DNA of 15,643 nucleotides from Anaerolineae bacterium (GTDB taxonomy: Bacteria; Chloroflexota; Anaerolineae; Aggregatilineales; Phototrophicaceae): assembly GCA_025454715.1 (NCBI GenBank), contig JALONY010000031.1, positions 1 to 15,643 on the forward strand, written 5' to 3'. The notes beneath the pieces were generated by a model, which was not told where the DNA came from, searched no databases, and saw nothing but the letters and a program-made list of their open reading frames with translations. Position 1 is the stretch's first letter. Every line of letters starts with the position of its first letter. This document shows, in pieces, positions 1-15,030 of the stretch. Made by a program: the position numbers and the translations under genes.

Positions 1-186
1 CACACCGACGCCCAATCCGACACGCTCAACCGCAGTGTCGGGGCGAAGGCCTTCACGCAGGGGTCGGACATCTTCTTCAAGTCGGGCGCGTTCCAGCCCG
101 AGTCCAGCGATGGCCAGCACTTGCTGGCGCACGAGCTGACCCACACCATCCAACAGGGTGCGGTGCAGCAAAAGCGCGAGGAATAA
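1..186 (+). CDS. DUF4157 (eCIS core domain) protein, 3' end only
   Basis: Frame 1 is open from the first base to TAA at 184-186 and gives the last 61 residues of a protein whose start lies outside the window. It matches the conserved end of the DUF4157 domain: a HTDA start, an [10 protein letters not shown] segment, then [12 protein letters not shown] with an HExxH zinc-binding motif (HELTH). In known proteins the domain occurs in effectors or accessory proteins of extracellular contractile injection systems and in other large surface proteins. The protein stops about 13 residues after the motif, so any toxin or payload region must be upstream or absent. In many relatives the domain is near the N-terminus, so a C-terminal position would be less usual. 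It is followed by 146 bases of leader before the kinase gene. The domain call is firm; the function is not known. Confidence 0.85.
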
Positions 187-332: not shown

Positions 333-3300
333 ATGCCCGACGGGATGATTGGCAAGACCATCGAGCATTACCGCATCGACTTCATGCTGGGGCAAGGGGG
401 GATGGCGGCGGTCTACCGCGCCACCGACCTGCGCTTGCAGCGGCAGGTCGCCATCAAGCTGATGCACCCGCACCTCGCGGTACAGCCCAGCTTTCAGCGC
501 CGCTTCTTGCAAGAGGCGCGGGCGGCGGCCAAGCTCGACCACCCCAACATCATCCGCGTGCTGACCTTCAACAACCTGAACAACGACTTGTTCATCGTGA
601 TGGAGCTGGTGACGGGCGGCAACCTGCGCCAGCACATCAAGAAGCTGTACGAAGAAGGCCGCATCATCGATTACCCCGAGGCCATCGAGCTGGCCTCGCA
701 AATGGCCGACGCGCTGAGCTACGCGCACCGCCAGAGCATGATCCACCGCGACATCAAGCCCGACAACGTGCTGCTCAAGCCCGATAACGGCGGGGCGCGC
801 CTGAATTACCGCCCGATTTTGACCGATTTCGGGCTGGCCAAGCTGACCGCCAGCACCGACTCGGCGGTCACCGACCAACAGCCGATTGGGACTTACCCCT
901 ACATGTCGCCCGAGCAGTGCTTGGCCGAGGACATCGACCAGCGCAGCGACCTGTACTCGCTGGGGGTGATGCTGTACGAGCTGTCGGTCGGGCGCTTGCC
1001 GTTCAACCCCAAATCGATTGCCGAGGCGGCGCGGATGCACGGCAAAGAGGCCGTGCCAGCCCCGTCGGCGGTGCGCCCGAACTTCCCGCCCGACCTCGAG
1101 CGGGTGATTTTGCGCGCCCTGCAAAAAGACCCCAATCAGCGCTACGCCAGCGCCCAAGACATGGTGGCCGACCTGCAAGCCTTGCTCAGGCCGGTCTCGC
1201 CCGCCACCCAAACCCTGAGCGTGCCGGTGGTGGCAGCCCGCCCGCCCGCCGCCAGCAAGACCGATACCGGCTTCTCGACCGACATCACCACCGCGCTGAT
1301 GGGGCAACCGCTGCCCAAGAAAATCCCGCCCGACCTGCCGGTGCCGCTCACCGACGCCGACATCCGTGCGCGAGACCGCTTGGTATTGACCAGCCCGAGC
1401 CACCCGCCGGTGATTGCCACCTTCAGCGACTCGCGCCCGATTTTGCGCTTGGGGCGCGGCCCAGAGGCCAACATAACCTTGCAAGGCGAGCTGGTCTCGC
1501 GCTTGCACGCCGCCATCGAGCTGAAGCCTAACGGCAAATTCACCATCACCGACCTCAAATCGACCAACGGCACCTACCTCGACGACGTGCGCCTGACGCC
1601 CAACGAGCCGATGCTGTTGCGGGCGGGCATGACCGTGCGCCTCGGCGATTATTGGGCGCAACTGGAGCAAAAGACCGTCTTGGACGACGTGGGTGCCCTG
1701 CCCGCCGCGGTCTCGTCGCCCATCGAGGTCGATGCGGACGCCTTCGACCCGCTCAGCCCAGCCCGTCACGAGCCAATCCTGACCGACACGATGACGACCG
1801 ACGCGCCGCCGCCCCCGTCGATGCCCGCGCCGCCGGTCGCACCCGCACCGCCGGTCAGCGCCCCCCTGCCCGAGGTCTTCGATACCGAGCGGCCAGCCCC
1901 GCCGGTCGTGCCCGCCCCGCCCAAGCCACCGGTCGCACCCGCGCCGCCGCCGGTCGTGCCCGATACCGAGCCGCCGCCCGCGCCCGCTGCACCGCCCGCA
2001 CCCCAGCCCAGCACAGGGCGTACCCAGATGTTCGCGGTGCCCACCTTGCCGCCCGACGACAACCCGACCGCGCCGTTGCCGCCGCGCCTGCCCGACCAGC
2101 CGCCGCACTACACCCCGCCGCAGGTCAGCCCAGAGCAGCTCAACACCGAGCGCCTGACCTTCATCAGCGAGACCCGCCCGACCGTGACCGTGCGGATGAG
2201 CGCCGACGGGATGCGGATTGGGCGCGGCGAGGACGCCGACATCCGCCTCGACGACCCGACCCTGTCGCGCTTGCACGCCCGCGTGCAGCGCAACCCCGAC
2301 GGCACCATGGCGATTTATGACCTCAACTCGCGCCACGGCGTGCGCGTCAACGGGGTGCGAATCCCGCCCCAGACCCGCACGGCCATCGGCCAGACCGACG
2401 ACATCGCCCTCGGCCAATATTGGCTCAAGGTCGAGCCGCGGGCGGTCGTGCCGGTCAATTTCGCCTCGATGATCCCGACCCTCGACCTCGGCGATGAGCC
2501 GGACATCGACCCCGAAGACACCGTCCAGATGATTAAGGCGCTGGACGAGCAGGTGCCGCACTACTCGCCGCCGCCGATGACCTTGGACATGCAGGCCGCC
2601 GACCGCCTGCTGTTCTACAGCGAAGACCACCCGCCGCTGGTGGTCAAGTTGTCGCAAGAAATCATGACCATCGGGCGTGACGCGCAACAAGACATCCGCC
2701 TCGAGGGGCGGCGCGTCTCGCGTCAGCACGCCTTGCTGGAGCTCAAGGCCGACGGCCAGATGTACCTGACCGACCTCGACTCCGAAAACAAGACGTGGGT
2801 GGGCGATACCGAACTCGTCCCCCACACCCAAGTCCAATGGGCGCGGGACGAGGTGGCGCGCATCGGCAATTATTGGGTGACCTTCCAGCGCGGGAGCGAG
2901 GTGTTCGAGGCCGGCGACCTCGCGGCAGCGCGTGACCCGCGCAACTTGGTCGGCTCGCGCATCAAAAACTTCCGCATCGACCGCTTCGTCGGGCAAAACA
3001 GCCTGACCGGCGTCTATAAGGCCACCGAACTCCCGCTCGACCGCGTGGTCGCGCTCAAAATCATGCACCCCAACCTCGCCTCGGAGGAGCCGCGCAAGCA
3101 ACGCTTCTTGCAAGAGGCGCGGATGCTCAGCCGCCTAGAACACCCCAACATCGTGCGCGTCTTGTCGTATGACAACGTGAACAACGAGCTGTTCATGGTG
3201 ATGGAGTTCATCGCGGGGGTCAGCATCCGCAAATACCTGCGCGACCTCGGCCAGCAAGGGCGCTTGCCCGCCCTCGACGAGGCGCTGTCCATCGTGGTGC

Positions 3301-6300
3301 AGATTGCCGACGGGCTGCACTACGCCCACCAACAAGGCATGATTCACCGCAGCCTCAAGCCCGAAAACGTGGTGATGCGCACCAGCACGGTGATTGGCCC
3401 GATCGTCAAATACCAGCCGGTGATGACCGATTTCAGCATCGCCCGCGCCGCCGACAGCGGGGCGATTTTCGTCACCGACAAGCCGAGCTTGGAATACCCG
3501 TACCTGTCGCCGGAGCAATGTCAGGGCGAGCGCGTCGATATCCGCAGCGACATCTACGAGATGGGCATCTTGCTCTACGAGATGCTGGCCGGACAGCCCC
3601 CGTTCAGGCCGCGCTCGCTGTCCGAGGCCATTCGGATGCACGTTCACGAGCCCGTCCCGTCCATCGACGAAATCCGCTCCGACGTGCCGGAAGACCTGCA
3701 AATCATCCTGCGCAAGATGCTGGCCAAAGAGCCGAACAACCGCTATCAGACCGCCATCGAGGTCGGGCGGGCGCTGCAACGCCTGAACGTCGGCAGCGCG
3801 CAAGGCGACCAGCGCGACACCGCAGGGGCGGCGGCGGGCGTGGCGCTCGAGGACATGCTGACCTCGTACATGGCCAAGCCCCTGCCCGACTCGATGCCCC
3901 ACCCGACCCGCGTGCCGTCGGTCTTGCCGGTCGGGGCGCAACCGGTCGAGCAATTGGTGTTTTACAGCGACGACTCGCCCACGCGGGTCATCCCGTTCGA
4001 CAAGCCGGTATTGACGCTGGGGCGCGCCGACGACCAAGACGTGGTGCTGCGCGGCGACAAGGTCAGCCGCCGCCACGTGCGTATCGAGCGCGGCTTGGGC
4101 GACATCGTGCGCGTCATCGACCTCGGCAGCAAAAACGGCACCTACATCGGCAAATACAAGCTGATTGCGGGCGTGGCCGAGACGTGGGACAAGGCCGAGA
4201 CCTTGCGCGTCGGCAGTTATTGGGTGCGCGTCGAGCAACCGCTGAACAAAATCGATACGCCGGTGCCCGCCCAGCGCACCAACGTCCCGACCGCGCCCGC
4301 CCCCGCGCCGGTGGTCTTGCCCCCGCTGATGCCCGAACGGATTGGCGTATCGTGCAACACCACCCGCCTGACGGTCATCCCCGGGCAGACGACCACGCTG
4401 GCGGTCGAAATCGTCAACCGCAGTGAGGTGGTCGATCACTTCAAGGTCGAAATCATCGGCCTCGAAAGCGCGTGGTACACCCCGCCGGTCGATGCCGTCT
4501 ACCTGTTGCCCAACACCCGCGATACCGTGTCGGTCACCTTCCACCCGCCGATGAACAGCACCAGCGCGGCGGGCGGGCACGCCTTCTCGTTGCGGGTGAG
4601 CTGCCGCGCCCAAGACATGCAATCGCCCGCCACCCAGCTCACGCTGGACATCAAAGACTTCTACAGCTACACCATCGACCTCGAGCCGGTGCGCCTGAAG
4701 GGGCGCGGGCGCTCCGAGCTGACCATCCACAACACCGGCAACACCTTCGCCAAATACACCATCCAGCCCAAAGACCGCGAGGAAGCCCTGCGCTTCGATT
4801 ACGTCGGCAAGCAGTTCACGTTGGCGCCCGGCCAGCGCGAGGTGTTGGGCATCAAAGTGTTGCCGCGCCGCCGCCACTGGCTGGGCGGGGCGCAAACCTT
4901 CCCGTTCGGCATCGAGGTCGTCCCGACCCCGACCGCCGAGTCGGGCGGCATCCAATCACAACAGGGCGAGCTGGTGGTGCGGGCGCGCATCCCCGCCTTC
5001 TTGCTGGCGTTGGCCTTGCTGGGGCTGGTGCTGTGCGGCGTGGTCGGGGCATTGGCCTATACGCAGGTGGTGGCGTTTCAGGTGCAGCAACAGACCATCA
5101 CCGCGCAGGCGCAAATCGTGCTGGCCGACCAGACCGCCACGGCGGTGGCCGGTGCCGACTCCGACGGGGACGGGCTGGCCAACCTGCGCGAGGCCGAGCT
5201 GAAGACCGACCCCGCCAACCCCGATACCGACGGGGACGGCCTGACCGACGGCGAGGAGGTGCAGCGCTACGCCACCAACCCGCTCAACATCGACACCGAC
5301 GGCGACGGGGTGAACGACGGCGACGAAATCACCGGCGGCACCAACCCGAACAACCCCGACACCGACGGCGATGAGCTGACCGACGGCGAAGAGAAGCTGA
5401 TTGGCACCAACCCGTTGCTGCGCGACACCGACCAAGACGCGCTCAACGACAAAGAAGACCCGCAACCGCTCATCGCCAACCTGCCGACCGTGACCCCCTT
5501 CCCGACCATCCCGGGCACGCAAGGCGACATCTGCCCGGGGTCGCCGTCACCGGCGCGGGTGGCGGTCGGGATGCAGGCGGTGGTCGAGCCGGGCGGCGTG
5601 GCCAACCGCGTGCGCTCCGAGCCGAACGTCGAGGCCGAGGTGCTCACCCAGATGCCGCCGGGCGCGGTGTTCGTCATCGTCGGCGGCCCCGAGTGCGGCA
5701 CCGATGACCTGTTGCGCTGGTGGCAGGTCAATTATCAGGGCGTGGTCGGCTGGACTGCCGAGGGCGAGGAAGAGGAATATTACATCGCGCCCCCGGGTGA
5801 GGAAGGCGACGGCGACGCGCCCGCCTCGGACGAGGAATTGTCCATCGCGCCCGAGCCGGTGGCCGCGCTCAGCCCCAACCGGATGGGCGTGCAGGTGCAA
5901 TGGTACGTCTCGGACGGGCAATGGCAACGGGCGATGGACTTGGCCGCACCGCTGGGCGTCGGCTGGGTCAAATTGCAAGCCGACTGGGGGATGTTGGAGC
6001 CGCAACGCGGGGTGCTGGGCGAAAATTTCGCGGTGTTCGCCAACGCGGTGCGCGACGCCGACGCCCGCGGCTACCGCGTGCTGATTAGCGTGGCCAAAGC
6101 GCCCTCATGGGCGCGCAGCACCAGCGGCGAGGCCGCCCCGCCCGACGACCCGCAAGACCTCGCCGAGTTCTTGACAGCTGGGCGGTGCCATCGACGCCGT
6201 GGAGGTGTGGAACGAGCCGAACCTGCGCCGCGAGTGGAACACCGATGCCCTGCCGTTCAGCGGCGAGGGTTATATGCGCCTGTTCGCGCCCGCCTATCGC

Positions 6301-6584
6301 GCCATCCGCGCCGCCGCGCCCCAAATGCGGATTGTGACGGCTGGCCTCGCCCCGACCATCAACGGCACCGAGGGGCAACGCCCCAGAAGCGCGCTGTTGC
6401 GCCCCCGACGGGCAAGCGGGCTGGGACGACCGCCGCCAGTTCTTCTTCCTCGACACCCTCGAGTCTTACCGCATCATCATGGGCGAGAGCGGCCACGACG
6501 TGCGCCTGTGGGCGACCGAGTTCGGCTGGCCGACCTATGACGACCTGCCCGGCCAAGCCAGCGAGGCGTGGATGGTCTCGCTGA
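333..6584 (+). CDS. giant membrane Ser/Thr kinase with pseudokinase, four FHA domains, TSP3, SH3b and a disrupted glycoside hydrolase-like end
   Basis: The frame encodes 2,083 residues. Residues 15-285 are a Hanks-type Ser/Thr kinase with all key parts: GQGGMAAVY loop from G20, VAIK Lys42, HRDIKPDN with Asp140, DFG Asp165, and MSPE. FHA domains lie near 350-445, 608-702, 760-853 and 1208-1300; a Pro-rich linker fills about 490-563. A second kinase fold at 873-1153 keeps VALK Lys909 but has HRS (Ser1007) for HRD and DFS (Ser1035) for DFG, so it is probably a pseudokinase. Two Ig-like beta domains follow (1333-1547), then one membrane helix at 1553-1580 with Arg on the N-terminal side, which puts the kinases in the cytosol. 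Outside are TSP3 repeats (1609-1710), SH3b (1742-1820) and the start of a clan-A-like TIM barrel (from about 1847). From about residue 1949 the frame is shifted, and the last 135 Arg-rich residues are not family sequence. It is the first gene of a kinase, vWA-FHA and PP2C operon. The trigger and substrates are unknown. Confidence 0.9.
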   Translation: MPDGMIGKTIEHYRIDFMLGQGGMAAVYRATDLRLQRQVAIKLMHPHLAVQPSFQRRFLQEARAAAKLDHPNIIRVLTFNNLNNDLFIVMELVTGGNLRQHIKKLYEEGRIIDYPEAIELASQMADALSYAHRQSMIHRDIKPDNVLLKPDNGGARLNYRPILTDFGLAKLTASTDSAVTDQQPIGTYPYMSPEQCLAEDIDQRSDLYSLGVMLYELSVGRLPFNPKSIAEAARMHGKEAVPAPSAVRPNFPPDLERVILRALQKDPNQRYASAQDMVADLQALLRPVSPATQTLSVPVVAARPPAASKTDTGFSTDITTALMGQPLPKKIPPDLPVPLTDADIRARDRLVLTSPSHPPVIATFSDSRPILRLGRGPEANITLQGELVSRLHAAIELKPNGKFTITDLKSTNGTYLDDVRLTPNEPMLLRAGMTVRLGDYWAQLEQKTVLDDVGALPAAVSSPIEVDADAFDPLSPARHEPILTDTMTTDAPPPPSMPAPPVAPAPPVSAPLPEVFDTERPAPPVVPAPPKPPVAPAPPPVVPDTEPPPAPAAPPAPQPSTGRTQMFAVPTLPPDDNPTAPLPPRLPDQPPHYTPPQVSPEQLNTERLTFISETRPTVTVRMSADGMRIGRGEDADIRLDDPTLSRLHARVQRNPDGTMAIYDLNSRHGVRVNGVRIPPQTRTAIGQTDDIALGQYWLKVEPRAVVPVNFASMIPTLDLGDEPDIDPEDTVQMIKALDEQVPHYSPPPMTLDMQAADRLLFYSEDHPPLVVKLSQEIMTIGRDAQQDIRLEGRRVSRQHALLELKADGQMYLTDLDSENKTWVGDTELVPHTQVQWARDEVARIGNYWVTFQRGSEVFEAGDLAAARDPRNLVGSRIKNFRIDRFVGQNSLTGVYKATELPLDRVVALKIMHPNLASEEPRKQRFLQEARMLSRLEHPNIVRVLSYDNVNNELFMVMEFIAGVSIRKYLRDLGQQGRLPALDEALSIVVQIADGLHYAHQQGMIHRSLKPENVVMRTSTVIGPIVKYQPVMTDFSIARAADSGAIFVTDKPSLEYPYLSPEQCQGERVDIRSDIYEMGILLYEMLAGQPPFRPRSLSEAIRMHVHEPVPSIDEIRSDVPEDLQIILRKMLAKEPNNRYQTAIEVGRALQRLNVGSAQGDQRDTAGAAAGVALEDMLTSYMAKPLPDSMPHPTRVPSVLPVGAQPVEQLVFYSDDSPTRVIPFDKPVLTLGRADDQDVVLRGDKVSRRHVRIERGLGDIVRVIDLGSKNGTYIGKYKLIAGVAETWDKAETLRVGSYWVRVEQPLNKIDTPVPAQRTNVPTAPAPAPVVLPPLMPERIGVSCNTTRLTVIPGQTTTLAVEIVNRSEVVDHFKVEIIGLESAWYTPPVDAVYLLPNTRDTVSVTFHPPMNSTSAAGGHAFSLRVSCRAQDMQSPATQLTLDIKDFYSYTIDLEPVRLKGRGRSELTIHNTGNTFAKYTIQPKDREEALRFDYVGKQFTLAPGQREVLGIKVLPRRRHWLGGAQTFPFGIEVVPTPTAESGGIQSQQGELVVRARIPAFLLALALLGLVLCGVVGALAYTQVVAFQVQQQTITAQAQIVLADQTATAVAGADSDGDGLANLREAELKTDPANPDTDGDGLTDGEEVQRYATNPLNIDTDGDGVNDGDEITGGTNPNNPDTDGDELTDGEEKLIGTNPLLRDTDQDALNDKEDPQPLIANLPTVTPFPTIPGTQGDICPGSPSPARVAVGMQAVVEPGGVANRVRSEPNVEAEVLTQMPPGAVFVIVGGPECGTDDLLRWWQVNYQGVVGWTAEGEEEEYYIAPPGEEGDGDAPASDEELSIAPEPVAALSPNRMGVQVQWYVSDGQWQRAMDLAAPLGVGWVKLQADWGMLEPQRGVLGENFAVFANAVRDADARGYRVLISVAKAPSWARSTSGEAAPPDDPQDLAEFLTAGRCHRRRGGVERAEPAPRVEHRCPAVQRRGLYAPVRARLSRHPRRRAPNADCDGWPRPDHQRHRGATPQKRAVAPPTGKRAGTTAASSSSSTPSSLTASSWARAATTCACGRPSSAGRPMTTCPAKPARRGWSR
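1801..2020 (+). repeat. proline-rich linker between FHA1 and FHA2
   Basis: Within the kinase gene, about 70 codons alternate Pro-Pro with Ala/Val (APPVAPAPP and PAPPKPPVAPAPP type units). This is a low-complexity flexible cytoplasmic spacer separating the kinase-FHA1 block from FHA2. The DNA is a run of CCG/CCC/GCC codons and could be prone to length change. Confidence 0.7.
5157..5466 (+). repeat. thrombospondin type 3 calcium-binding repeats
   Basis: Inside the kinase gene, five consecutive units follow the pattern D-x-D-x-D-G with (L/V)xDGEE-type spacers and TNP turns (for example NPDTDGDGLTDGEE). They sit just outside the predicted membrane helix. The acidic side chains are the calcium ligands of TSP3 repeats. 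The last unit has degraded to DTDQDALND. The repeats probably form a rigid calcium-dependent stalk carrying SH3b and the hydrolase-like domain. Confidence 0.85.
6181..6400 (+). pseudogene. glycoside hydrolase-like domain, middle part displaced into frame 1
   Basis: After about 6180 the family sequence continues in frame 1, not in the kinase frame: IDAVEVWNEPNLRREW, then GYMRLFAPAYRAIRAAAPQMRIVTAGLAPT. The Glu of WNEPN (codon 6214-6216) is the acid/base position expected in clan A-type hydrolases. Before it, about five or six residues usual in such domains (a short Ala/Arg/Tyr stretch after FLTA) are missing, which suits a loss of 3n+2 bases at about 6174-6190. There is no ribosome site of its own, so it is the displaced interior of the kinase gene's last domain, not a separate gene. 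Family sequence fades near 6375. Confidence 0.7.
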
Positions 6585-6826
6585 CGACCGAGCAAAAGGC
6601 CGACTACGTGGCCGACGCCTTCGCCATCGCGCAGGGCTTCGACTTCATGGGGCCGATGTTCTTGTGGAACCTGAACTTCGCCAACGCCCAAACCGTGGCC
6701 GAGGACAGCGAAATGGCCGCCTTCAGCCTGCTGTATACGCCCGATGAGCAAATCGTGGTCGAGCGCCCCGCCTACCAAGCACTGGTGACGCGGCTGAGCG
6801 CCCCCGCCCCAGAAGGGGGTGAATGA
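6401..6826 (+). pseudogene. glycoside hydrolase-like domain, C-terminal part displaced into frame 2
   Basis: Frame 2 gives APDGQAGWDDRRQFFFLDTLE, then RIIMGESGHDVRLWATEFGW and onward to TGA at 6824-6826. The Glu of ATEFGW (codon 6518-6520) is where clan A-type hydrolases have their nucleophile. Compared with related domains, a segment of some tens of residues between GLAPT and DDRRQFFF seems absent, so a larger deletion of 3n+2 bases near 6376-6402 is likely. An ATG at 6479 opens a 115-residue frame, but no good ribosome site precedes it and it starts inside the domain. The ATGA overlap of its stop with the vWA-FHA start suggests 6826 was the original end of the kinase gene. Confidence 0.75.
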
Positions 6827-9030
6827 TGCTGCACCGTGCCGTGATGACCGTTGGCCGCCGCACGCTGGGCGCGCTGGTGCTGATGGTGCTGTTGGGCGCG
6901 CTGGCGGGCGGGGGCGCGGCGCAAGGCCGCACCGTCGGGCAGATGCGCGTGGTAGACCCGCCGACCGTGACCGGCAACCGCGTCTCGGTCGGGGTGCGCA
7001 TCGAGGGCGTCAACCCGCAGGCGCTCATCCCGCTCTCGGCGGTCAATTTCAGCGTCAGCGAGCCCGCCGCCGAGCTGAGCGTGACGCGTGAGGCGCGCAC
7101 CCCGCACGCGGTCGCTTTGCTGGCGGTGGCCGGCTTCGGCAGCGACCTCGATTTGATTCAGGCCAGCTTGCGCGCCTACACCGACCAGTACGTGCAGGAC
7201 GGTGACCGCGTGCTGTTGATTACGTTGGACGGGCGCGGCCTGACCGAGACCGAGACCGACGACCCCAGCGCCTTGTTGGCGGCCATCGGCGCGATGCAGA
7301 TTTCGCGCAATTACCCCATCCTGAGCGAGGCGGTGCGCCCCGCGCTGGCGTGGCTGGCCGAGCAACCGGAGGGCGAAACGGTGCGGTTCGGGGTGTTGTT
7401 CGCCTCGTATCTCAACGTCAACGAAGACCTGACCGAGTCGGCGGCGTTTGCCGGTGCGGGCGTGCCGTTGCACGTCGTGCAGCCGCACACCTTCCGCGAC
7501 TCGTTCACCACGCGGATGCGCCAGATGGCCGAGAACACCGGCGGCCTGTTCATCGACAACAAGAACGGCCTGTTTTCGCAAGGCCTCCCGCCGCAGGCCA
7601 GCGCCAGCCTCAAGGTGCTGTACGACGCGCTGGCCGCCACCCGTGACGTGTTCACCGTCAGCTATCGGGCGGTGGGCAGCAGCCTCGAGACCCAGCCCGA
7701 CATCCTTCTGACGGCGCGCCTGACCCTTACCCAGTCGGTCAGCACCCGCTTCCAATACGCCCGCGCCTTCGCGCCGCCCACCGTCAGCTTCTCGCAACAG
7801 ACCATCGCCCCGATTCGTCGCCCGACCGTCGGCCCCAGCGGCCTGCTGTACGACCTCGACGAGCAACCGGTGGCGGTGCGCGTGGCGTTCGAGGACAACG
7901 TGCCGCGGGGGGTCGAGTCGATCCAATTGGACGTGTTGGACGCCGTGACCGGCCTCGTCTTGGGGTCATCGGTGGTGGTGGAGCCTCAGACCGACCCGAG
8001 CGGTAGCTACCGCGTGCCGTGGTCACTGGTCGATTTTCTGGAGCCCGGGCGCTTGTATACCGTGACCTTGCGCGCCACCGTGACCGATGAACTCGGTTTG
8101 AGCGGCAGCGCCGAGCAACAGGCCGCCGTGACCGTGGCCGCGTTGCCCGCCACCGCCACCCCGACGGCCACCCTGACCCCGACCCCGACCGCCACCCCCA
8201 GCATCACCCCGACGCCGGAGGCCAGCCCAACCCCCGACGTGACGCCCAGCGCGGTCGCCCTCGTCGCTGGGGGTGGGGGAGAGCAAGGCACCGCTCAACC
8301 CCTGCCGCCCCCGACCCCCGCACCGTCCGCCCCGCCCGCGCCCAGCGGCGCGCCCGACCCGTTGGTCTGGCTGTTGGGTGGCATGGCCGCCGTGTTTGGC
8401 GTGCTGACGCTGGGGTTGGCCTTGGCGTTGTGGCGCGCCCGCCGCGCCCCTGCCCGCGCCACCACCGAGGGCGACGCGGCCATCGCGGGGATGTCGTTGA
8501 TGGACATCCCGACCCCACTGCCCGACGCGCCCAACAACGACCCCGCCACCATCCAAAACCGGTCGCAGTTGTACGGGCGCTTGCTGGTCAAGCGCGGCCT
8601 GCCCGCCGGTGAAATCTTGATTATGGCCGAGGAGTTCGTGGTCGGGCGCAAGCAGGACAGCGACGTGCAATACACCATCGATAAGCCGTTCGTCTCGCCC
8701 CGCCACTGCCTGATTACCCACAAGCGCGGGCGCTTCACCATCCGCGACCTGAACTCGAAAAACGGGACTTACGTCAACGGCGAGCGCCTGCACCCCGACC
8801 GCGATACCATCGTGCCGGTCGGCAGCGAGGTGGCCGTGACGCAAAACATCGTGTTCGAGCTGTGGGATCCCAACACGGTGGTCAAGGTCGATTATCAAGG
8901 CGACGCCATCCGCAGCAACCGCGTGACCGAAGACAACAACACCCGCACCAACCCGCCTACCCGCGCCAACTCGTCCACCGTCAGCAGCATCGACGGCGAG
9001 CCGGTCGGCGACGACTACAGCCCAGTCTGA
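6823..9030 (+). CDS. membrane protein with secreted vWA-like domain and cytoplasmic FHA domain
   Basis: This 735-residue protein starts with a likely signal peptide (RR at 12-13, hydrophobic 15-28, AA-Q near 33). A von Willebrand A-like fold spans about residues 95-280 (AVALLAVAGFGSDLD, GDRVLLITLDGRG, GVLFASYL, then MAENTGGLFIDN), but the usual DxSxS metal site is not visible. A beta-rich region and a Thr-Pro linker (about 442-505) lead to a membrane helix at 512-540 followed by RARRA, so the C-terminus is inside. Residues 583-680 are an FHA domain with phosphothreonine-contact positions intact: Arg609 (GRK), Ser625 (SPRH), Asn647 (NGTY). ATG 6823 overlaps a TGA at 6824-6826 and is preceded by AGAAGGGGG, which suggests translational coupling. 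It is probably the phospho-dependent partner of the upstream kinase, linking an outside ligand to inside phosphorylation; the ligand is unknown. Confidence 0.85.
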   Translation: MMLHRAVMTVGRRTLGALVLMVLLGALAGGGAAQGRTVGQMRVVDPPTVTGNRVSVGVRIEGVNPQALIPLSAVNFSVSEPAAELSVTREARTPHAVALLAVAGFGSDLDLIQASLRAYTDQYVQDGDRVLLITLDGRGLTETETDDPSALLAAIGAMQISRNYPILSEAVRPALAWLAEQPEGETVRFGVLFASYLNVNEDLTESAAFAGAGVPLHVVQPHTFRDSFTTRMRQMAENTGGLFIDNKNGLFSQGLPPQASASLKVLYDALAATRDVFTVSYRAVGSSLETQPDILLTARLTLTQSVSTRFQYARAFAPPTVSFSQQTIAPIRRPTVGPSGLLYDLDEQPVAVRVAFEDNVPRGVESIQLDVLDAVTGLVLGSSVVVEPQTDPSGSYRVPWSLVDFLEPGRLYTVTLRATVTDELGLSGSAEQQAAVTVAALPATATPTATLTPTPTATPSITPTPEASPTPDVTPSAVALVAGGGGEQGTAQPLPPPTPAPSAPPAPSGAPDPLVWLLGGMAAVFGVLTLGLALALWRARRAPARATTEGDAAIAGMSLMDIPTPLPDAPNNDPATIQNRSQLYGRLLVKRGLPAGEILIMAEEFVVGRKQDSDVQYTIDKPFVSPRHCLITHKRGRFTIRDLNSKNGTYVNGERLHPDRDTIVPVGSEVAVTQNIVFELWDPNTVVKVDYQGDAIRSNRVTEDNNTRTNPPTRANSSTVSSIDGEPVGDDYSPV
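8146..8330 (+). repeat. Thr-Pro low-complexity linker
   Basis: Codons read as [22 protein letters not shown] sequence, then a Pro/Ala-rich run, between the extracellular vWA region and the membrane helix. The same style of linker ends the PP2C protein, and 29 bases at 8185-8213 are identical to 11335-11363. Confidence 0.75.
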
Positions 9031-9060
9031 TGATGACGGCGGCAGGAGAGAACCCCAACG

Positions 9061-11511
9061 ATGGCTGACCAATCCGCAATCACCACCCACTCCCTGCGCG
9101 AAATCATGGGGCGCGAGCGCCTCGAAGACTATGCCGTCGATGCGGTCGTCGAGACGGCGGGCGGCTTGCGCCTGCATGTCGCGCTGGTGTGCGACGGGGC
9201 GGGTGGCGAGTCGGGCGAAATCGCGGCGCGCACCGCCGCCCGCACCATCCTCGATTATTTACAGGTCAGCCCAGCGACCCAAATCCCCAAATTGCTGGTC
9301 AAGGCGGTCGAGAAGGCCAATCAGGTCGTGTTCAGCGAGCTGCGCGGGCGCGGCACCACCACCGTGGCCTTGCTGTGCGCCGACCTGAACGACAACCCGC
9401 CCAACGGGCGCTTGTACCTCGCCAGCGTGGGCAACAGCCCGATTTTGCTGATGCGCGACGGGCGTTTGGTGCGCCTCAACATCGATCACACCTTGGCCAA
9501 CGAATACGTCTACGCCGGTCAGATGTCGCCGGAAGAGGCGGCGCGCCTGCAAAACGCCACCTACATCACGCGGGCGCTGGGCGTCGGTGCCGAGGTGCAG
9601 GTCGATATCGGGTTTTATGCCGAGCGCGGGCGCGAGTTCGTCTCGTCGCGGCGGGCGGCCTCCATCGGCCAAAAAGGCATGGCGCTCAAGCCCGGCGACA
9701 CGCTGATTGCCCTGAGCGACGGCCTGCGCGAGACCGCCAGCGACGGCCAACCCTACCTGCGCGATGACGACCTGTTGCGCCACGCGCTGGACGATGACGC
9801 CGAGCGCGCCGCCCAAGCCCTGATGCGCTACGCGGTCGCCCGCGCCCCGCAAGACAACCTCAGCCTGTCGCTGATGATGGTCGATTCGCCGCAGCGCCGC
9901 GCCGTGCGCGCCAGCACGCTCACCCGTGGCCAGCGCGCCGGAATCGGGCTGGGGTTGTTGGGGGTGCTGTTGCTGGTCGGGTTCGTCATCGTGCAATTGC
10001 TGGCCACCCAATCCCGCGAGGTGGTCATCCGCGCCACCCAGACCGCCATCGCCGAGACCGCCATCGTGCTGGCTTATACCGCCACCCCCAGCCCGACCCC
10101 CTCGCCGACCATCACCCCGACCATCCCGCCCACCCGCGCCGCGCCCAACCAAGCCGGTGTGCAGTTCCAACGTGACGGCAGCAGTAATCCGGTCTTCACC
10201 AACCGCGTGATTTTCTCGCCCGACATCAACTTTTTGGTGCTGGACGGCCCGACCCTCAACGACGACTTGCCGCGCCCCGCCCAGCCCGCCAACGTGTTCT
10301 TGCAATCGCAACAAACCCTGATTGAGCTGTTCGCGGTCAACAACGTGCCCGACCAAGAGGGCATCTTGCTCCAGTTGTTCCCCGCGGGCGATGTGTTTTA
10401 CAACATGGGCACCTTCCAGAACCGCGGCGCGTCGGTCAATTTTCTGCAAAACGCCAGCCTGCTGTACGTGGCCGAGACGGCGTGCCTCTCGACCAAGCAA
10501 CTGCCGGGCGACCCGACCGACCCGAACGCCCGCGACACGGTCGCCCTGACCTGCTACACCGGCCAGCGCGGCGATTGTTGGATGCAGACGGTCGGGGAGC
10601 CGGAGGTCGAGGTCATCCCGATTGGGCAACGCGCCGTGTTCGACCTCGTGAGCGGCGAATTGGTCAGCCAGAGCGCGCCATTGTTCGATGAGGTCAAGAC
10701 CTATTACGATACCGCCGTCATCCTGACGGGCAGTGACGAGCAGGTGCAATGTCTGGGGGCGTACCTCGACCTCGACGGCGACACCGTGCCGTACCCCGCC
10801 GACGTGTGCCCAGAACAACCCGGGTCGGTGGCCGCGCAAGGTTGCCCCGACGCCGACGATGACGGCGTGACCGACGACATCGACCAGTGCCCCGCCGAGG
10901 GCGGCTTCGTCGATGCCACCGGTTGCCCGTTGCCCACGCCGACGGTCAACCCGCTGGTCAGCCCGACCCCGACCCAGACCGCCACCCCGACCCCGACCCT
11001 GCGCCAGACCCGCACGCCCACCCGCACCCCCAGCCCGACCCTCGACACGACCGAGACCAACACCCCGACCCCGCGCCCACCCGCCAGCCCATCCCCGACC
11101 TCGACCCCGACCCGCGGGGAGCCGACCGACACGCCCAACCCGACCAACACCCCGCGCCCGACCAATACCAACACCCTGCCCGCTCCGCCGTCCAATACGC
11201 CGGTGGTCTTGCCCCCCACCAACACCCTGACCCCGACGCCGGTCAGCAGCAACACCCCCTTGCCCAATACGCCGGTGCCGCCCCCGACCCTGACGCCCAC
11301 CCCGACCATCACCCGCACCCCGACGCCCGTGACGCCGACCGCCACCCCCAGCATCACCCCGACCTTTACCGAGACGCCCACGCCCACCATCACGCCCAGC
11401 CCGACCCCGACCGCCACCCCGACCCTCACGCCGTCCAACACCCCGACCATCACCCCGACCGCCACCCCCATCATCCTGACGGTGGTCGCCAGCAACACCC
11501 CGCCGCCCTGA
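9061..11511 (+). CDS. membrane-anchored PP2C-type Ser/Thr phosphatase with extracellular domain and TP-rich tail
   Basis: This 816-residue protein has an N-terminal PP2C (PPM) domain, residues 1-275. Metal-binding motifs are present: LED with Asp23, CDGAGG with Asp45, SDG Asp220 and PQDN Asp265, plus GTTTVALL and [12 protein letters not shown], so it is predicted to remove phosphate from Ser/Thr, most likely on the co-encoded kinase and FHA proteins. One membrane helix lies at about 294-316. Outside follow a short TP linker, a domain of about 200 residues with several Cys (365-570; perhaps FecR-like, weakly), a TSP3-like segment with [17 protein letters not shown], and a Thr/Pro tail from 623 to the end. 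AGGAG at 9044-9048 precedes ATG 9061, 30 bases after the vWA-FHA stop, so one operon is likely. Phosphatases with this much extracellular sequence are unusual; the tail may be a glycosylated or wall-spanning stalk. Confidence 0.9.
10927..11508 (+). repeat. Thr-Pro-rich repeat tail of the PP2C protein
   Basis: About 190 codons are dominated by Pro and Thr (TPTP, NTP and SPTP units) and run to the stop codon. At DNA level this is a degenerate array of accccgac/acgcccac-like units. Such tails are common in surface proteins of Chloroflexota and probably form an extended stalk. There is no folded domain after it and no sorting signal that I recognise. Confidence 0.85.
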
Positions 11512-11537
11512 CGCCCGCATTTTTGGCGCGGCGGGTG
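11496..11537 (+). other. imperfect inverted repeat around the PP2C stop codon
   Basis: CACCC-GCCGC at 11496-11506 can pair with the stretch ending GGCGGGTG at 11537, giving two five-pair stems separated by a bulge and a loop that contains the TGA and a five-T run. The T-run is in the loop rather than after the stem, so this is not a standard terminator. It may still slow or end the operon transcript, or it may be chance in GC-rich DNA. Confidence 0.3.
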
Positions 11538-11543
11538 TATACT
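11536..11543 (+). promoter_or_regulatory. possible -10 element for coaX
   Basis: TGTATACT contains the near-consensus -10 hexamer TATACT (11538-11543) in otherwise GC-rich DNA. It lies 49 bases before the coaX start, which suits a transcription start near 11550. No convincing -35 is seen 16-18 bases upstream. The leading TG is one base too close for a classical extended -10. Confidence 0.4.
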
Positions 11544-11592
11544 GTGCGCCGAAACGAACGCGGGTCATCGCACACGGGAAAAGGGGGCGACG

Positions 11593-12393
11593 ATGCTATT
11601 GGCCGTCGATGTGGGGAATACCAACATTCACCTCGGCTTGTGGAACGGGGAACGCTGGGCGCTGAGCTGGCGCGCCCGCACCGTCCACGACAAAATGCCG
11701 GATGAATATGGGGTGCTGGTGCGCAATTTCTTGACCAGCGCCGATGTCGGGTTTGCGGCGGTGCATGGGGTGGTCATCGGCAGTGTGGTGCCGCCGCTCA
11801 CGCTGGCGTTTACCGAGCTGGTGCAGCGCTACTTTCGGCTAGAGCCGTTGGTGGTCAACCACACCATCAAGCTGGGGGTGACCTTGGCGCTCGACCAGCC
11901 GGAGCAGGCCGGTGCCGACCGCGTGGTCAACGCGGCGGCGGTGGTGGCCTTGCACGGTGGCGGCCCCGCCATCGTCATCGACTTCGGCACCGCCACCACC
12001 TTCGATGTGGTGTCGGCCAAGGGCGAGTACCGCGGCGGCGCGATTTGCGCGGGCATCAACGTGGCGCACGACGCGCTGGTCAGCCGTGCGGCCAAGCTGC
12101 ACAAGGTCGATTTGACCCCGCCGCCCTCGCCGATTGGTTCCAACACCATCCATGCCATGCAATCGGGCATCTTCTATGGCTACGTCGCCATGATTGAGGG
12201 CTTGACGGCGCGCATCAAGGCGCAATTGGCCATCGACGACCCCGCCCACCCCAACGTCCGCGTGATTGCGACCGGCGGCCTCGCCCCGCTTTTGTACAAG
12301 CACACCCACGCCATCGACCAAATCGAGCCGGAGCTGACGCTCGACGGCCTGCGCGTGGTCTATGACCTCAACGCCCCCCACGGGCGCAGTTAA
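11593..12393 (+). CDS. coaX: type III pantothenate kinase
   Basis: This enzyme phosphorylates pantothenate with ATP, the first committed step of coenzyme A synthesis, in the cytoplasm. The 266-residue product is near the usual CoaX length of about 255-260. It shows the ASKHA-fold signatures of the family: DVGNTN at 5-10 (phosphate loop), GADR at 107-110 (pantothenate contact) and DFGTATTFD at 130-138 (catalytic and monovalent-cation region), then GGAICAGI and a C-terminal ATGGLA nucleotide motif. AAGGGGG at 11581-11587 lies five bases before the ATG. An 81-base gap with a possible -10 separates it from the signalling operon, so it probably starts a new transcript with the YitT-family gene 22 bases downstream. 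It has no evident functional link to the kinase cluster. Confidence 0.95.
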   Translation: MLLAVDVGNTNIHLGLWNGERWALSWRARTVHDKMPDEYGVLVRNFLTSADVGFAAVHGVVIGSVVPPLTLAFTELVQRYFRLEPLVVNHTIKLGVTLALDQPEQAGADRVVNAAAVVALHGGGPAIVIDFGTATTFDVVSAKGEYRGGAICAGINVAHDALVSRAAKLHKVDLTPPPSPIGSNTIHAMQSGIFYGYVAMIEGLTARIKAQLAIDDPAHPNVRVIATGGLAPLLYKHTHAIDQIEPELTLDGLRVVYDLNAPHGRS

Positions 12394-12399
12394 CGCACC

Positions 12400-12404
12400 G
12401 GAGG
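12400..12404 (+). promoter_or_regulatory. ribosome binding site that sets the YitT-family start
   Basis: GGAGG lies 11 bases before ATG 12416. The frame is also open to ATG 12362 inside coaX, but that start lacks a comparable site and would add 18 residues unlike the family, so 12416 is preferred. Confidence 0.65.
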
Positions 12405-12415
12405 CCGACCGCATC

Positions 12416-13333
12416 ATGCTGCCCAACCTCAAGCCCGTCAACGGGCGCACCGTCCAGCAATTCTTCATCCGCTTTTCTTTCCTCACCGCAGGCACGCTGA
12501 TTTGGATCGTGTCGGTCGGGGTGTTCCTCGCCCCGTTCGACATCGCACCGGCGGGCGTGTCGGGCGCGGCGGTCATCCTCAACGACCTGATTGGCACCCC
12601 CATCGGCCTCGTCACCCTGCTGGGCAACATCCCCATCCAGCTCTGGGCGTGGCGGCGCTTCGGCTGGGGCACGGTCGCCAGCACGGTCTATTGCGTGGTG
12701 CTGTTCTCGGTCTTGGCCGATGTCATCACGCCGCTCTTCCCCCAACAAGGCATCAGCAATGACCCGTTGCTCAACGCCATCTTCGGCGGGGTCATCGGCG
12801 GGCTGGGCGCTGGCCTGATTTACAAGGTCGGGGGCACGTCGGGCGGCACGTCCACGCTGGCGCGCATCTTGCAAGACCACTACGGCGCGCCGCTGAGCAC
12901 CACCTATCTGTACGCCAACCTGATCGTGGTCGCGTTTGCGGGGTTGGTGTTCGGTTGGGAGGGGGCGCTGTACGCCATCGTGGCGCTGGCCGCCGAGGGT
13001 GCCGCCTCCGATTACATCCTCGAAGGGCCCAGCGTGGTGCGTAACGGCATCATCGTCACCAACCACCCCAAAGAGGTGTCCGAGGCCATCATGACGGTGA
13101 TGCAGCGCGGCGTGACGAGCTGGCAGGCGGTCGGGATGTACACCGGCCAAGAGCGCACCATCCTGCTGGTGACGGTGGCGCGCTTCCAGATTGACCAATT
13201 GCGCCAACTGGTGGCCTCGGTCGATCCGCAGGCGTTCTTGGTGATTGGGCAGGCGCACGTGGCCTATGGGCAAGGGTTCCTCAAGCCGTCGGGCTTGCTG
13301 GACGACCCGAACCGCGCCCAGACCCCGCACTGA
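12416..13333 (+). CDS. YitT family membrane protein (DUF161 and DUF2179)
   Basis: This 305-residue integral membrane protein begins with about five hydrophobic segments: FLTAGTLIWIVSVGVFLAPF, then ones around VTLLGNIPIQL, VASTVYCVVLFSVLADV, IFGGVIGGLGAGLIYKVGG and LIVVAFAGLVFG. The PAGVSGAAVIL and GGTSGGTSTLARIL glycine/serine-rich motifs are typical of the YitT (YebE/YitU) family. The C-terminal soluble part is a DUF2179 domain (RGVTSWQAVGMYTGQERTILL to VASVDPQAFLVIGQAHVAYGQGF), which in structures has a ferredoxin-like fold. The biochemical role of the family is not settled; transport has been suggested. It lies 22 bases after coaX and is probably cotranscribed with it. It converges with the minus-strand FAH-family gene. 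Confidence 0.9.
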   Translation: MLPNLKPVNGRTVQQFFIRFSFLTAGTLIWIVSVGVFLAPFDIAPAGVSGAAVILNDLIGTPIGLVTLLGNIPIQLWAWRRFGWGTVASTVYCVVLFSVLADVITPLFPQQGISNDPLLNAIFGGVIGGLGAGLIYKVGGTSGGTSTLARILQDHYGAPLSTTYLYANLIVVAFAGLVFGWEGALYAIVALAAEGAASDYILEGPSVVRNGIIVTNHPKEVSEAIMTVMQRGVTSWQAVGMYTGQERTILLVTVARFQIDQLRQLVASVDPQAFLVIGQAHVAYGQGFLKPSGLLDDPNRAQTPH

Positions 13334-13334
13334 G

Positions 13335-13352
13335 GGCAGGGCACACCCTGCC
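13335..13352. terminator. hairpin between convergent genes
   Basis: GGCAGGG (13335-13341) pairs perfectly with CCCTGCC (13346-13352) around a CACA loop, exactly in the 18-base gap between the YitT-family stop (13331-13333) and the FAH-family stop (13352-13354, minus). Position and symmetry suggest a bidirectional transcription end. Neither strand has a T-run after the stem, so it may need Rho or act only as a 3' stabiliser. Confidence 0.5.
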
Positions 13353-14293
13353 TAGCCCACGACCGTCCGCAGCACGCCCAAGACCCCGCCGTCCAGCTCG
13401 ACCACATCGCCGCGCTGGAGCCACGGGCCTTGGGCGCGGGTGGTCTCCAGCAGGCACCCCGTCCCGACCGTGCCACTCCCAATCACGTCACCGGCCAACA
13501 GGGTCACGTCGGCGCTGGCACGCGCCAGCATCTCGCCGAAGCCGTAGTGCAAATCGCGCCAGTTGCCCGCCCCGCGCACCTCGCCATTGACGCGCACCGT
13601 CAGCGGGATGTCGTAGACGCCGACGCGGTCGGTCTTGTAGGGTTCCAGCTCATCGGGCGTGACCACCCACGGGCCGAGGCTGCTGGCAAAATCCTTGCCT
13701 TTGGCCGGCCCCAGCCCAACCGCCACCTCTTGGCGCTGCAAATCACGTGCCGACCAATCATTAAACAAGGTATAGCCGAGGATGTGCGCCTCGGCCTCGC
13801 CAGCCGCGAGGTCACGCCCCGCCCGCCCGATGATGCACGCCACCTCCAGCTCATAATCGAGGGCGTTGGAGCGCTTGGGGGCGGTCACCGGCTCATCGTG
13901 CCCCAGCATCACGGTCGGGTTGGAGAAGTAAAAGACCGGTATCTCGTACCACTCCTTGGGCACCTCGCGCCCGCGGTTGTTCATCGCGGTTTTGACGTGT
14001 TGCTCGAAGGCGTAAAAATCGCGCAGGGTGGCTGGGCGTTGGATGGGCGCGGCCAACCGCACCCCCGCGAGGTCGAACGTCCGGCGGGCGTGCCCGTTGA
14101 GGGTGGTATCGTCGCTCCCGCCCTTCAGGCGCACGTCGAGGGCGCGCAGGTCGTCGAGGAACGGCATCCCGCGCTCCAGCCAGCCGTGCAAGCTGCCCTT
14201 CTCGCTTTCGCCGACCTCGACCACGGTCTGCTTAACCAACAGGCCGAGGCGTGCCCCGGACTCATCGGGCGGGATGAATTGGACGAGGCGCAT
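13352..14293 (-). CDS. fumarylacetoacetate hydrolase (FAH) family protein
   Basis: This 313-residue member of the FAH superfamily uses a divalent metal to cleave C-C bonds or decarboxylate/hydrolyse acylpyruvate-like compounds, often in aromatic catabolism. An N-terminal regulatory-like half (1-85) precedes the catalytic fold: RDFYAFEQHV near 90-100, then the metal ligands Glu148 and Glu150 in DYELE and Asp179 in FNDWSARD, followed by KGKDFASSLGPWVV and GSGTVGTGCLLE. The motifs and length favour the larger two-part FAH proteins, but the substrate cannot be assigned and no pathway genes flank it. The start is fixed by AGGAG eight bases upstream. It is the last gene of a minus-strand group with the unknown membrane protein (5-base gap) and tyrS. 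Confidence 0.92.
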   Translation of the reverse strand: MRLVQFIPPDESGARLGLLVKQTVVEVGESEKGSLHGWLERGMPFLDDLRALDVRLKGGSDDTTLNGHARRTFDLAGVRLAAPIQRPATLRDFYAFEQHVKTAMNNRGREVPKEWYEIPVFYFSNPTVMLGHDEPVTAPKRSNALDYELEVACIIGRAGRDLAAGEAEAHILGYTLFNDWSARDLQRQEVAVGLGPAKGKDFASSLGPWVVTPDELEPYKTDRVGVYDIPLTVRVNGEVRGAGNWRDLHYGFGEMLARASADVTLLAGDVIGSGTVGTGCLLETTRAQGPWLQRGDVVELDGGVLGVLRTVVG

Positions 14294-14298
14294 GGCGG

Positions 14299-15030
14299 TT
14301 ACTCCTGTAGGGGCGGGTGGCGGGTGATGAGATAGCCGTCGGCGGTCAGGGTCAGGTCGGGCGGGCGGTGCGCCAATTGGGCGAGGGCGGCGCGCTGGTT
14401 GGGCGTGTCGTCGCCAATCAACCAGACCGGCGCGGCGGGGTCGAGGCGGCTGAGCACCACCTGCAAGCGCTCGGGGTCAAAGGCGCGCCAGCCGAGGTCG
14501 ATGGCCGTGCCTGCGCGCAGGTCATACCGGCGTTGGACGGCACCACCGGCGCTGGCCTCATCGAAAAAGGTCAACATCGGCTCGGTCGGGTGGCGCTCGG
14601 CGCGAAGTTGCGCGATGACCGACGGCCACGGGTCGGGCGGGGTGAGGAGCGCACCGACCAGCGCCACGGCACACCCCGCGCCCAATACCCCGACCGTCAG
14701 GCGTGGCGGCAGACGCCGCATCAGGCGCACCATCACGGCCACGCTCAGCATCCCCGCCAGCAACAATCCCCAGCGCCCGCCCTCGACCGAGTCGCCCGAG
14801 AGCCACGTCCACAGCTCGCCCAGCGCGGCGGGCAAGCCACCGCGTTCGATCGATTCCTCGAGGTTTTGGCGGGCGTAGCGGGCGGCGGCGCGCACATCAT
14901 CGGCGGGCACGTCGGCCACGTCACGGGTCGCCCAACCCCACCACCCATCGCTATCGGATGGGGCGGGCTTCATCAGCCACACCCCTATCAACAGCACCAG
15001 CACGACGAACAGGCCGACGCGCATCGCCAT
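14299..15030 (-). CDS. unrecognised membrane protein
   Basis: I do not recognise this 243-residue protein. A hydrophobic N-terminus (residues 5-20, VGLFVVLVLLIGVWLM) looks like a membrane anchor or uncleaved signal. A Trp/Asp-rich soluble segment follows, then two more likely helices around 87-105 and 110-130, and a soluble C-terminal domain of about 110 residues with short beta-like strands (PVWLIGDDTPNQRAALAQLA and YLITRHPP). The helices plus terminal soluble part recall the C-terminal end of membrane glycosyltransferases, but no catalytic N-terminal region is present, so this is only a resemblance. Its ATG shares one base with the tyrS TGA (TGATG), which suggests coupled translation, and its stop lies 5 bases before the FAH-family start. 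Composition matches the neighbours. Confidence 0.75.
   Translation of the reverse strand: MAMRVGLFVVLVLLIGVWLMKPAPSDSDGWWGWATRDVADVPADDVRAAARYARQNLEESIERGGLPAALGELWTWLSGDSVEGGRWGLLLAGMLSVAVMVRLMRRLPPRLTVGVLGAGCAVALVGALLTPPDPWPSVIAQLRAERHPTEPMLTFFDEASAGGAVQRRYDLRAGTAIDLGWRAFDPERLQVVLSRLDPAAPVWLIGDDTPNQRAALAQLAHRPPDLTLTADGYLITRHPPLQE
14302..14306 (-). promoter_or_regulatory. ribosome binding site of the FAH-family gene
   Basis: On the minus strand AGGAG lies eight bases before ATG 14293-14291 and falls within the final codons of the upstream membrane-protein gene (the last sense codon is GAG, then TAA). This fixes the start and supports cotranscription. Confidence 0.7.

Follow-up and report, generated by a model that had tools for sequence, protein, structure and literature searches.

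A receptor kinase, FHA protein and PP2C module next to a contractile injection system with an FHA-bearing baseplate wedge in Anaerolineae

The locus and the question

The window discussed here is a stretch of 15,643 nucleotides, positions 1 to 15,643 of contig JALONY010000031.1 (assembly GCA_025454715.1), from an Anaerolineae bacterium of the order Aggregatilineales in the Chloroflexota. It carries three contiguous genes, gene 1 (333..6826), gene 2 (6823..9030) and gene 3 (9061..11511), all on the plus strand as are the features of these genes given below, for a membrane receptor kinase, a protein with an FHA domain and a PP2C phosphatase. The question raised by the locus is what such a set of writer, reader and eraser, each with a part outside the membrane, is attached to. 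The window begins inside an eCIS-core (extracellular contractile injection system core, DUF4157) gene, of which the last 61 codons are at 1..186 with the stop at 184-186, and which matches the eCIS_core gene of the related genome G002, there recognised by Pfam as PF13699. Gene 1 is directly behind it.

The main point was missed in a preliminary description of the three genes, and lies outside the stretch which that description covered: the three genes belong with the operon of a contractile injection system (CIS), in which the wedge protein of the baseplate bears an FHA domain. We propose, with a probability of roughly 0.55, that the module is a membrane receptor with a phospho-switch that docks or triggers a cytoplasmic CIS by way of the wedge FHA, with the PP2C protein as the reset.

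The contractile injection system and its wedge

In G002 (Chloroflexi bacterium OLB13) the arrangement can be followed along one strand, from the end of a sheath gene that is cut by the contig start, through two tube genes (PF06841), CIS_tube (PF19266), spike (PF04717), gp25 (PF04965), Baseplate_J (PF04865), a gene for a protein with FHA and Tail_P2_I domains and eCIS_core (PF13699), to the kinase gene (interrupted by a frame break), gene 2 and PP2C. G001 has baseplate J, the FHA-bearing wedge (FHA-wedge), eCIS-core and kinase in that order on one contig. The window's own genome is in 444 contigs and is 71% complete. Its sheath and tube genes are on contig C272, and its spike, gp25, baseplate J and FHA-wedge genes are on C379, which stops exactly where the eCIS-core gene would come next; we infer from G001 and G002 that C379 and the window contig are neighbours. 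The set of sheath, tube, spike, gp25, baseplate J and wedge genes is present in one run in G002 and over C272 and C379 in the window's genome, the baseplate gene is of the TIGR02243 type, and the link of the module to the CIS is strong. With regard to the mode of action, the text of PMC12998442 assigns the Roseiflexus CIS to subtype IId, with a cytoplasmic mode.

The wedge encoded upstream of eCIS-core in the relatives has an N-terminal FHA domain and a C-terminal Tail_P2_I domain like that of Streptomyces Cis12. In the C-terminal half the homology (E 1e-13) is with a chain of 190 residues in 9GTP, the structure of the CIS baseplate of S. coelicolor deposited with PMC12237407, and we take this chain for Cis12 because there are six such chains in the entry. 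The wedge of the window's genome scores 72 bits with TIGR02242 (cut-off 51.85) and has a partial match to CIS12_fam, a model of 715 positions (71 vs 860 bits); PF09684 is found in the G002 wedge. The FHA of the own-genome wedge keeps all the residues of the phosphothreonine motif (GR, SxxH and NG), as that motif is given in the FHA account of PMC1262709. A structure model of the wedge has a mean pLDDT of 77 with values below 50 in the linker, residues 114-151, and the relative placing of its two domains is unreliable because the pTM is 0.50. Compared by fold, the model gives FHA domains first, with 9gtp_A at rank 21 and poorly superposed. As modelled, the wedge is an FHA domain joined to a Cis12-like domain.

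A protein search with the wedge gave 567 relatives. A phage origin was considered and rejected, as the FHA-wedge has no match at 1e-5 in 50,697 phage records. A role in anti-phage defence was also rejected: the PADLOC matches listed for gene 1 (25 of 34) are to kinase models, chiefly PD-T4-6, and PADLOC gave no match for gene 2, gene 3 or the wedge.

Pairing of the FHA-wedge with a receptor kinase

With a wedge profile, matches came from 34 of the order's 154 genomes (E <= 1e-20), from 84 of 396 genomes sampled across the class (1e-15) and from 153 of 400 sampled across the phylum (1e-10), with many of the last being matches to the FHA only. The loci used comprise 93 wedges: 33 from the order (the weak match in G004 was dropped from the 34), 40 from the class, fetched of 71 genomes outside the order with a match, and 20 from the phylum, picked among the better wedge matches. 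A locus was taken as testable if a kinase was seen or if at least 3 kb could be read downstream, and the 8 loci that were neither were dropped, leaving 85.

There is a kinase within 12 kb of 58 of the 69 FHA-wedges and of only 1 of the 16 wedges that lack an FHA, for which 15 have none (Fisher p 6e-9 for the 85 loci counted singly), and the sole FHA-less wedge with a kinase is cut by a contig start. The kinase nearest to an FHA-wedge is on the same strand in all 58 cases, at a median distance of 144 bp and within less than 1.5 kb in 48. The order-level loci alone give no contrast (20 with both FHA and kinase, 7 with FHA only and 1 with kinase only), because nearly all the wedges there bear an FHA; among the seven exceptions are five genomes (G007, G016, G125, G064 and G065) that have the receptor on another contig. 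At E <= 1e-44, a limit set after the list had been seen and with genomes counted by hand, the immunoglobulin-like (Ig) region of the receptor (alignment A3) is found in 29 of the 33 genomes where the FHA-wedge match is strong, against 4 of the other 121 (Fisher p 8e-23).

Detection of the receptor by its Ig region alone at E <= 1e-10 was rejected, as 134 of the 154 genomes then match, the region also being part of a widespread protein of some 700 aa. Of about 600-750 aa and in some cases FHA-bearing, this protein occurs in most of the order's genomes (for example G082:C84 and G063:C38) and seems not to be tied to CIS. A scan of genome contigs was set aside, as it yielded only five loci. Among the wedges of L193 and L199-L215 there is a clade that lacks the FHA, and most of its loci have an Ig-region protein of 1000-1100 aa, sometimes with a weak FHA and with no kinase. 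Elsewhere tandem receptor kinases stand behind one FHA-wedge, as in L255, L257, L258 and G012 (L104), with up to four in G012.

The pair of FHA-wedge and kinase recurs in Anaerolineae, Thermogemmatispora, a probable Roseiflexus and Deinococcus, by few independent events. In the Thermogemmatispora genomes G643, G565 and G608 a kinase-FHA-Ig protein is encoded directly after the FHA-wedge. G659, a closed genome of 5.8 Mb and probably a Roseiflexus, encodes one FHA-Ig and three kinase-FHA-Ig proteins behind its FHA-wedge; this wedge shares 82% identity with the R. castenholzii one (P0128), which also bears an FHA.

Six plasmid records were examined of 42 with a match, and five, all from Deinococcus, repeat the pattern of wedge and then receptor. 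The gene right after the wedge is annotated as an FHA domain-containing serine/threonine-protein kinase in D. taeanensis and D. psychrotolerans and as a protein kinase in D. aquaticus; in D. actinosclerus and D. grandis it is annotated as a hypothetical protein, and is by profiles the same receptor. The FHA and Tail_I parts of the wedge are in different frames in the D. grandis record; in D. aquaticus and D. taeanensis, for example, the wedge gene is unbroken, and D. psychrotolerans also has a vWA protein gene divergently oriented to the wedge. The sixth record, a cyanobacterial plasmid from Brasilonema, has an FHA-less wedge with no kinase in its vicinity. On the D. grandis plasmid pDEGR-1 (L268, features at 6181-8014 and 11583-12615) there are, besides the split wedge gene, fragments resembling a sheath gene; they are in several frames, are found between the sheath gene and those of the baseplate, and look like a decaying second copy of the sheath gene.

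The receptor kinase

Gene 1 and its relatives encode proteins in which kinase, FHA and Ig regions are followed by a membrane helix and an ectodomain; the N-terminus would be inside. By Pfam, gene 1 has Pkinase matches in two stretches and FHA matches in four, together with SH3_3 and TSP3 repeats. The kinase and the four FHA domains of the preliminary description are therein recovered, and a second kinase domain had been overlooked. Kinase domain 1 (381..1157, PF00069 at residues 17-275) has the VAIK Lys, HRD Asp and DFG Asp all present, these being the catalytic motifs of Hanks-type Ser/Thr kinases, and from these residues it is expected to be active. Kinase domain 2 (3045..3812, approximate limits) has HRS and DFS in place of HRD and DFG, in the window and in G002, and is therefore predicted to be a pseudokinase. 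In other relatives with two kinase domains, domain 2 ranges from intact to degenerate, and domain 1 is intact in all seven proteins shown with both.

The phosphothreonine motif is complete in FHA1 (1446..1646) and FHA4 (3996..4202, approximate limits) of gene 1, as in the FHA of gene 2, and is altered at NG in FHA2 (2187..2438, to HG) and in FHA3 (2655..2927, approximate limits, to NK). The conserved Ig-like juxtamembrane region is at 4413..5114 and includes the membrane helix (4998-5054); in relatives there is a weak hint of an Ig domain of the FixG_C type. On the outer side are the TSP3 repeats (5216..5414), the SH3_3 domain (5607..5753) and a domain at 5890..6826 that resembles glycoside hydrolase (GH) family 39 and PslG. 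The last had been described as hydrolase-like, and the likeness holds for a domain that is broken in this contig. The Pfam match to GH39 is weak and below cut-off; a profile of this part made from relatives matches PslG (5bx9) with E 5.9e-21. The Glu residues of NEP and TEFG, which we take to be both the catalytic residues of a glycosidase of the GH39/PslG type, are invariant in 10 of 10 aligned relatives, which were chosen at above 300 bits (one is truncated where its contig stops) and in all of which the GH part is unbroken. The two frame jumps of the window copy, near the 3' end of gene 1, are at about 6165-6200 and 6365-6400, at both of which relatives compared by eye have extra residues; the break may be due to decay or to a fault of the assembly. 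The frame break in gene 1 of G002 is elsewhere, between FHA1 and FHA2.

Genes 2 and 3 and conservation of the gene order

The reported arrangement of the three genes is borne out by the coordinates: gene 2 starts in an ATGA shared with the stop of gene 1 (6824-6826) and gene 3 follows gene 2 after 30 bases. A hydropathy scan likewise bears out a single internal membrane helix in each protein, gene 2 having in addition an N-terminal signal-like segment.

In gene 2 this signal-like start is followed by outer domains of vWA fold and beta type, the helix (8371-8427) and a cytoplasmic FHA domain (8638-8832), the only domain found by Pfam. The outer part had been called vWA-like. It has no vWA match by Pfam and no worthwhile match in a sequence search of the PDB; assignment by sequence alone was rejected, and only a structure model settled it. 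The model of the outer part has a mean pLDDT of 88 and matches vWA domains, with a TM score of 0.77 by target to CMG2 (1sht), and on this model it is of the vWA fold. The DxSxS signature of the metal ion-dependent adhesion site (MIDAS) of vWA domains is missing in the window and not conserved across 15 aligned sequences.

Gene 3 encodes a PP2C domain (residues 1-290), a helix (9949-10005), an outer domain and a Thr/Pro-rich stalk. The matches are to PF00481 (23.8 vs cut-off 20.3 bits) and SpoIIE (37 vs 25), and the NCBIfam Stp1 model gives 97.7 bits, under its cut-off of 230. The protein carries RERLEDY, CDGAGGE, LSDGL and DNLSL, which we take as the metal Asp motifs of PP2C.

The check proposed for the module was its order in related genomes, and kinase, vWA-FHA protein and PP2C are in order in 8 of 14 testable genomes, the window counted among them; a genome was testable if its gene 1 is of the GH type and is followed by enough sequence. 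The eight are the window, G002, G113, G116, G117 and G118 (with 1.8 kb between genes 1 and 2), together with G001 and G056, in which the order can be read from the GH-coding end of gene 1; all fall in two genera. In G023 gene 2 alone is behind a GH-type gene 1. The sequence of G022 ends too early for it to be counted, and G121 has gene 2 and PP2C with the kinase position reading N. The kept order is more than chance. Domains, motifs and order together back the idea of writer, reader and eraser with outer halves; a surface-sensing complex, as earlier suggested, remains a plausible candidate, and gating from outside we infer.

A search of 101 genomes gave relatives matching the outer part of gene 2 in G001, G002, G023, G056, G008, G004 and G005. 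In the last three (L025, L026 and L027 for G008, G004 and G005) gene 2, a small kinase of 315-330 aa and PP2C are together, and no CIS gene was seen nearby; G004 has WXG100 proteins close by and G005 a 1677-aa ATPase of the FtsK/SpoIIIE type, which suggests a link to type VII secretion. In G016 (L101) a PP2C-like gene (9840-11687) follows the wedge and eCIS-core, and a two-kinase receptor is on another contig. The remainder of the window (11593-15641) looks ordinary, with genes for a type III pantothenate kinase, a YitT family protein, an FAA hydrolase family protein and a protein without Pfam match, and also a partial minus-strand protein.

Proposed mechanism and alternatives

The mechanism that we propose would run as follows. 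The receptor spans the membrane, and its outer half would face wall, matrix or neighbours and sense the outside. Kinase domain 1 would phosphorylate the receptor tails, the pseudokinase region, gene 2 or the wedge, and the FHA domains of gene 2 and of the wedge, six per baseplate if this is as in Streptomyces, would bind the phosphothreonines so made. This binding would recruit loaded CIS to the membrane and prime firing, and PP2C would strip the marks and release or reset the CIS. With FHA domains on wedge, receptor and gene 2 there are many phosphothreonine readers, and phosphorylation could therefore gather baseplates at the membrane. In lineages with an inactive kinase the same proteins may dock without phosphorylation.

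The residues concerned allow the proposal to be weighed. Of 76 loci, 65 (the window's own genome included) have a wedge FHA with an unaltered phosphothreonine motif. Kinase and wedge FHA can be compared in 61 loci, drawn from 79 wedge FHAs and 63 kinase loci after rows gapped at a motif or without kinase were dropped, L189 and L263 among them. Both are intact in 45, both lost in 8, only the kinase in 4 and only the FHA in 4 (p 6e-5, with the losses bound to clades). The four kinase-only losses are all in genus g31. In this genus (L117-L120) the receptor beside the FHA-wedge lacks the HRD Asp, the wedge FHA is intact, and a second Ig-region protein is on another contig. The joint loss fits, and does not prove, a working kinase-FHA pair that has turned into plain docking in some lineages.

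Several observations weigh against the proposal. The kinase is predicted to be inactive in 8 of 59 kinase loci, one of the eight being an alignment gap, and in 4 of the 5 Deinococcus loci, and as this involves several related lineages phosphorylation cannot be essential everywhere. Dependence on phosphorylation, as we suppose it, has probably been lost in some lineages. Eleven of the 69 FHA-wedges have no kinase within 12 kb, with long runs of N in two (L097 and L112), and the partner of the FHA is not predictable from sequence. On the tree of 81 wedges there are no more than three changes of the FHA label; there are therefore few evolutionary events and not 85 independent loci, the p values overstate the case, and the contingency tests were rejected as independent evidence once the tree was available. 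In five of the 14 genomes with a testable GH-type gene 1 (G007, G016, G027, G032 and G125) neither gene 2 nor PP2C is behind it, and both have relatives outside CIS loci. Finally, Roseiflexus CIS particles were observed unanchored, as described in the text of PMC12998442.

The first alternative is docking without phospho-control, in which the FHA-wedge and an FHA-Ig membrane protein bind directly and the kinase fold is mostly scaffold or relay. The catalytic Asp is lost in the g31 receptors (4 loci) as well as in the four Deinococcus loci mentioned, and the SxxH Ser of the wedge FHA is lost in 5 of 5 Deinococcus loci, as would be expected on this alternative. In addition 10 of the 15 loci with a wedge that lacks the FHA, and without kinase, hold an Ig-region protein free of kinase, with an FHA detectable in some; this suggests that the kinase may have come later than the membrane partner. 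However both kinase and wedge FHA are intact in 45 of the 61 loci, the window's genus included, and there PP2C accompanies the receptor. We consider docking without phospho-control an unlikely account of the module.

A second alternative is control of assembly or firing as in the type VI secretion system (T6SS), with the kinase phosphorylating baseplate parts, FHA binding altering assembly, and no receptor for membrane docking. It has precedent, in that PpkA and Fha govern T6SS assembly and secretion (relevant text of PMC3953482 and PMC12607579) and the same three activities are encoded here. An FHA that is part of the wedge protein, together with a kinase whose outer half is large, points however to a signal from outside, and we regard this alternative as distinctly improbable. 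A general cell-surface signalling module merely beside CIS genes, in effect the preliminary reading with the CIS left out, would fit G004, G005 and G008, and also genomes such as G007, G016 and G125 with receptor and wedge on separate contigs or far apart, but is very improbable given that the FHA-wedge/kinase pairing spans classes of Chloroflexota and the Deinococcota and given the co-occurrence of Ig region and FHA-wedge (29 of 33 vs 4 of 121).

Comparison with known systems

The closest parallel to the proposed phospho-switch is the T6SS pathway. The text of PMC3953482 has PpkA phosphorylating TssL, which Fha binds, with FHA-phosphothreonine binding promoting secretion, and that of PMC12607579 has PpkA phosphorylating Fha and so gathering parts at the membrane. 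The likeness to PpkA, Fha and PppA is of a membrane Hanks kinase, an FHA reader and a PP2C phosphatase beside a contractile machine. In contrast to that pathway, the machine here is a CIS with a baseplate of the eCIS type, the FHA is fused to the wedge, and the PP2C is membrane-bound with an outer half. PpkA has a vWA domain in its own C-terminal part (PpkA account of PMC1262709), whereas gene 1 has an ectodomain of TSP3, SH3 and GH-like parts and the vWA is in a separate FHA protein.

The cytoplasmic CIS of Streptomyces has a homologous wedge and a bitopic membrane protein, CisA, which according to the main text of PMC12237407 is needed for firing and is proposed to recruit the CIS. It differs in that its wedge chain, being short, leaves no room for a further FHA, and CisA is likened to gene 1 by description only; the words kinase and FHA do not occur in that main text. 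The Roseiflexus and Deinococcus CIS of PMC12998442 are from the same groups of organisms as studied here, with D. grandis shown there to produce CIS, and its main text also has no occurrence of FHA or kinase; the FHA of the R. castenholzii wedge and the Deinococcus receptors were found in the present analysis. Its Discussion gives the Roseiflexus CIS as without a close CisA homologue, and how intracellular CIS that lack CisA reach the membrane and time their firing is a question open in print, as framed in that text. The FHA-wedge and its receptor are, on the sequence evidence, candidates for the missing CisA-like part, and provide named genes for probing firing without CisA, including genes of cultured Deinococcus and Thermogemmatispora. 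A broader view, to which we would give a little less than an even chance, is that CIS of Chloroflexota and Deinococcota use phospho-regulated docking, in which the FHA in every wedge would bind a phosphorylated membrane kinase, with an outer half for reading envelope glycans or contact, and a phosphatase would reset it; this would be the missing membrane trigger where CisA is lacking, and an invention parallel to the T6SS phosphorylation pathway.

With regard to the literature, we did not find the pairing of FHA-wedge and receptor described, in a search that had subscription papers, preprints and supplements outside its range, so that mention elsewhere is possible. A search for CIS with FHA domain and kinase gave a T6SS review only, and FHA is not mentioned in the main texts of PMC8213781, PMC12923769, PMC12998442, PMC12237407 and PMC8894136; a histidine kinase gene adjoins some eCIS regulators (PMC8213781). 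Some of the Deinococcus proteins are already named in plasmid records.

There are other systems that share single features. Mycobacterial FhaA and MviN (Rv3910), of which 3oun was matched by fold, have by that entry an FHA domain on the intracellular domain of a membrane protein. The intracellular domain of Rv3910 bound by FhaA is, as we take it, a pseudokinase. The differences are that this pair, as we understand it, serves cell-wall synthesis and not a CIS, and that FHA and pseudokinase are on separate chains. The ArnAB complex of Sulfolobus is the top match by E value of the outer part of gene 2, with a loose superposition. ArnA and ArnB are an FHA and vWA pair under kinase control, with ArnB cytoplasmic, whereas in gene 2 vWA and FHA are on opposite sides of the membrane in one protein. 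The TerY-P triad has vWA, PP2C and kinase, with a cytoplasmic TerY vWA and ter genes; a literature search on this triad turned up nothing useful for the comparison. Set against the known combination of a contractile machine with Ser/Thr phospho-control, what looks new here is a reader that forms part of the baseplate, and if our proposal is true contractile machines have acquired Ser/Thr phospho-control more than once.

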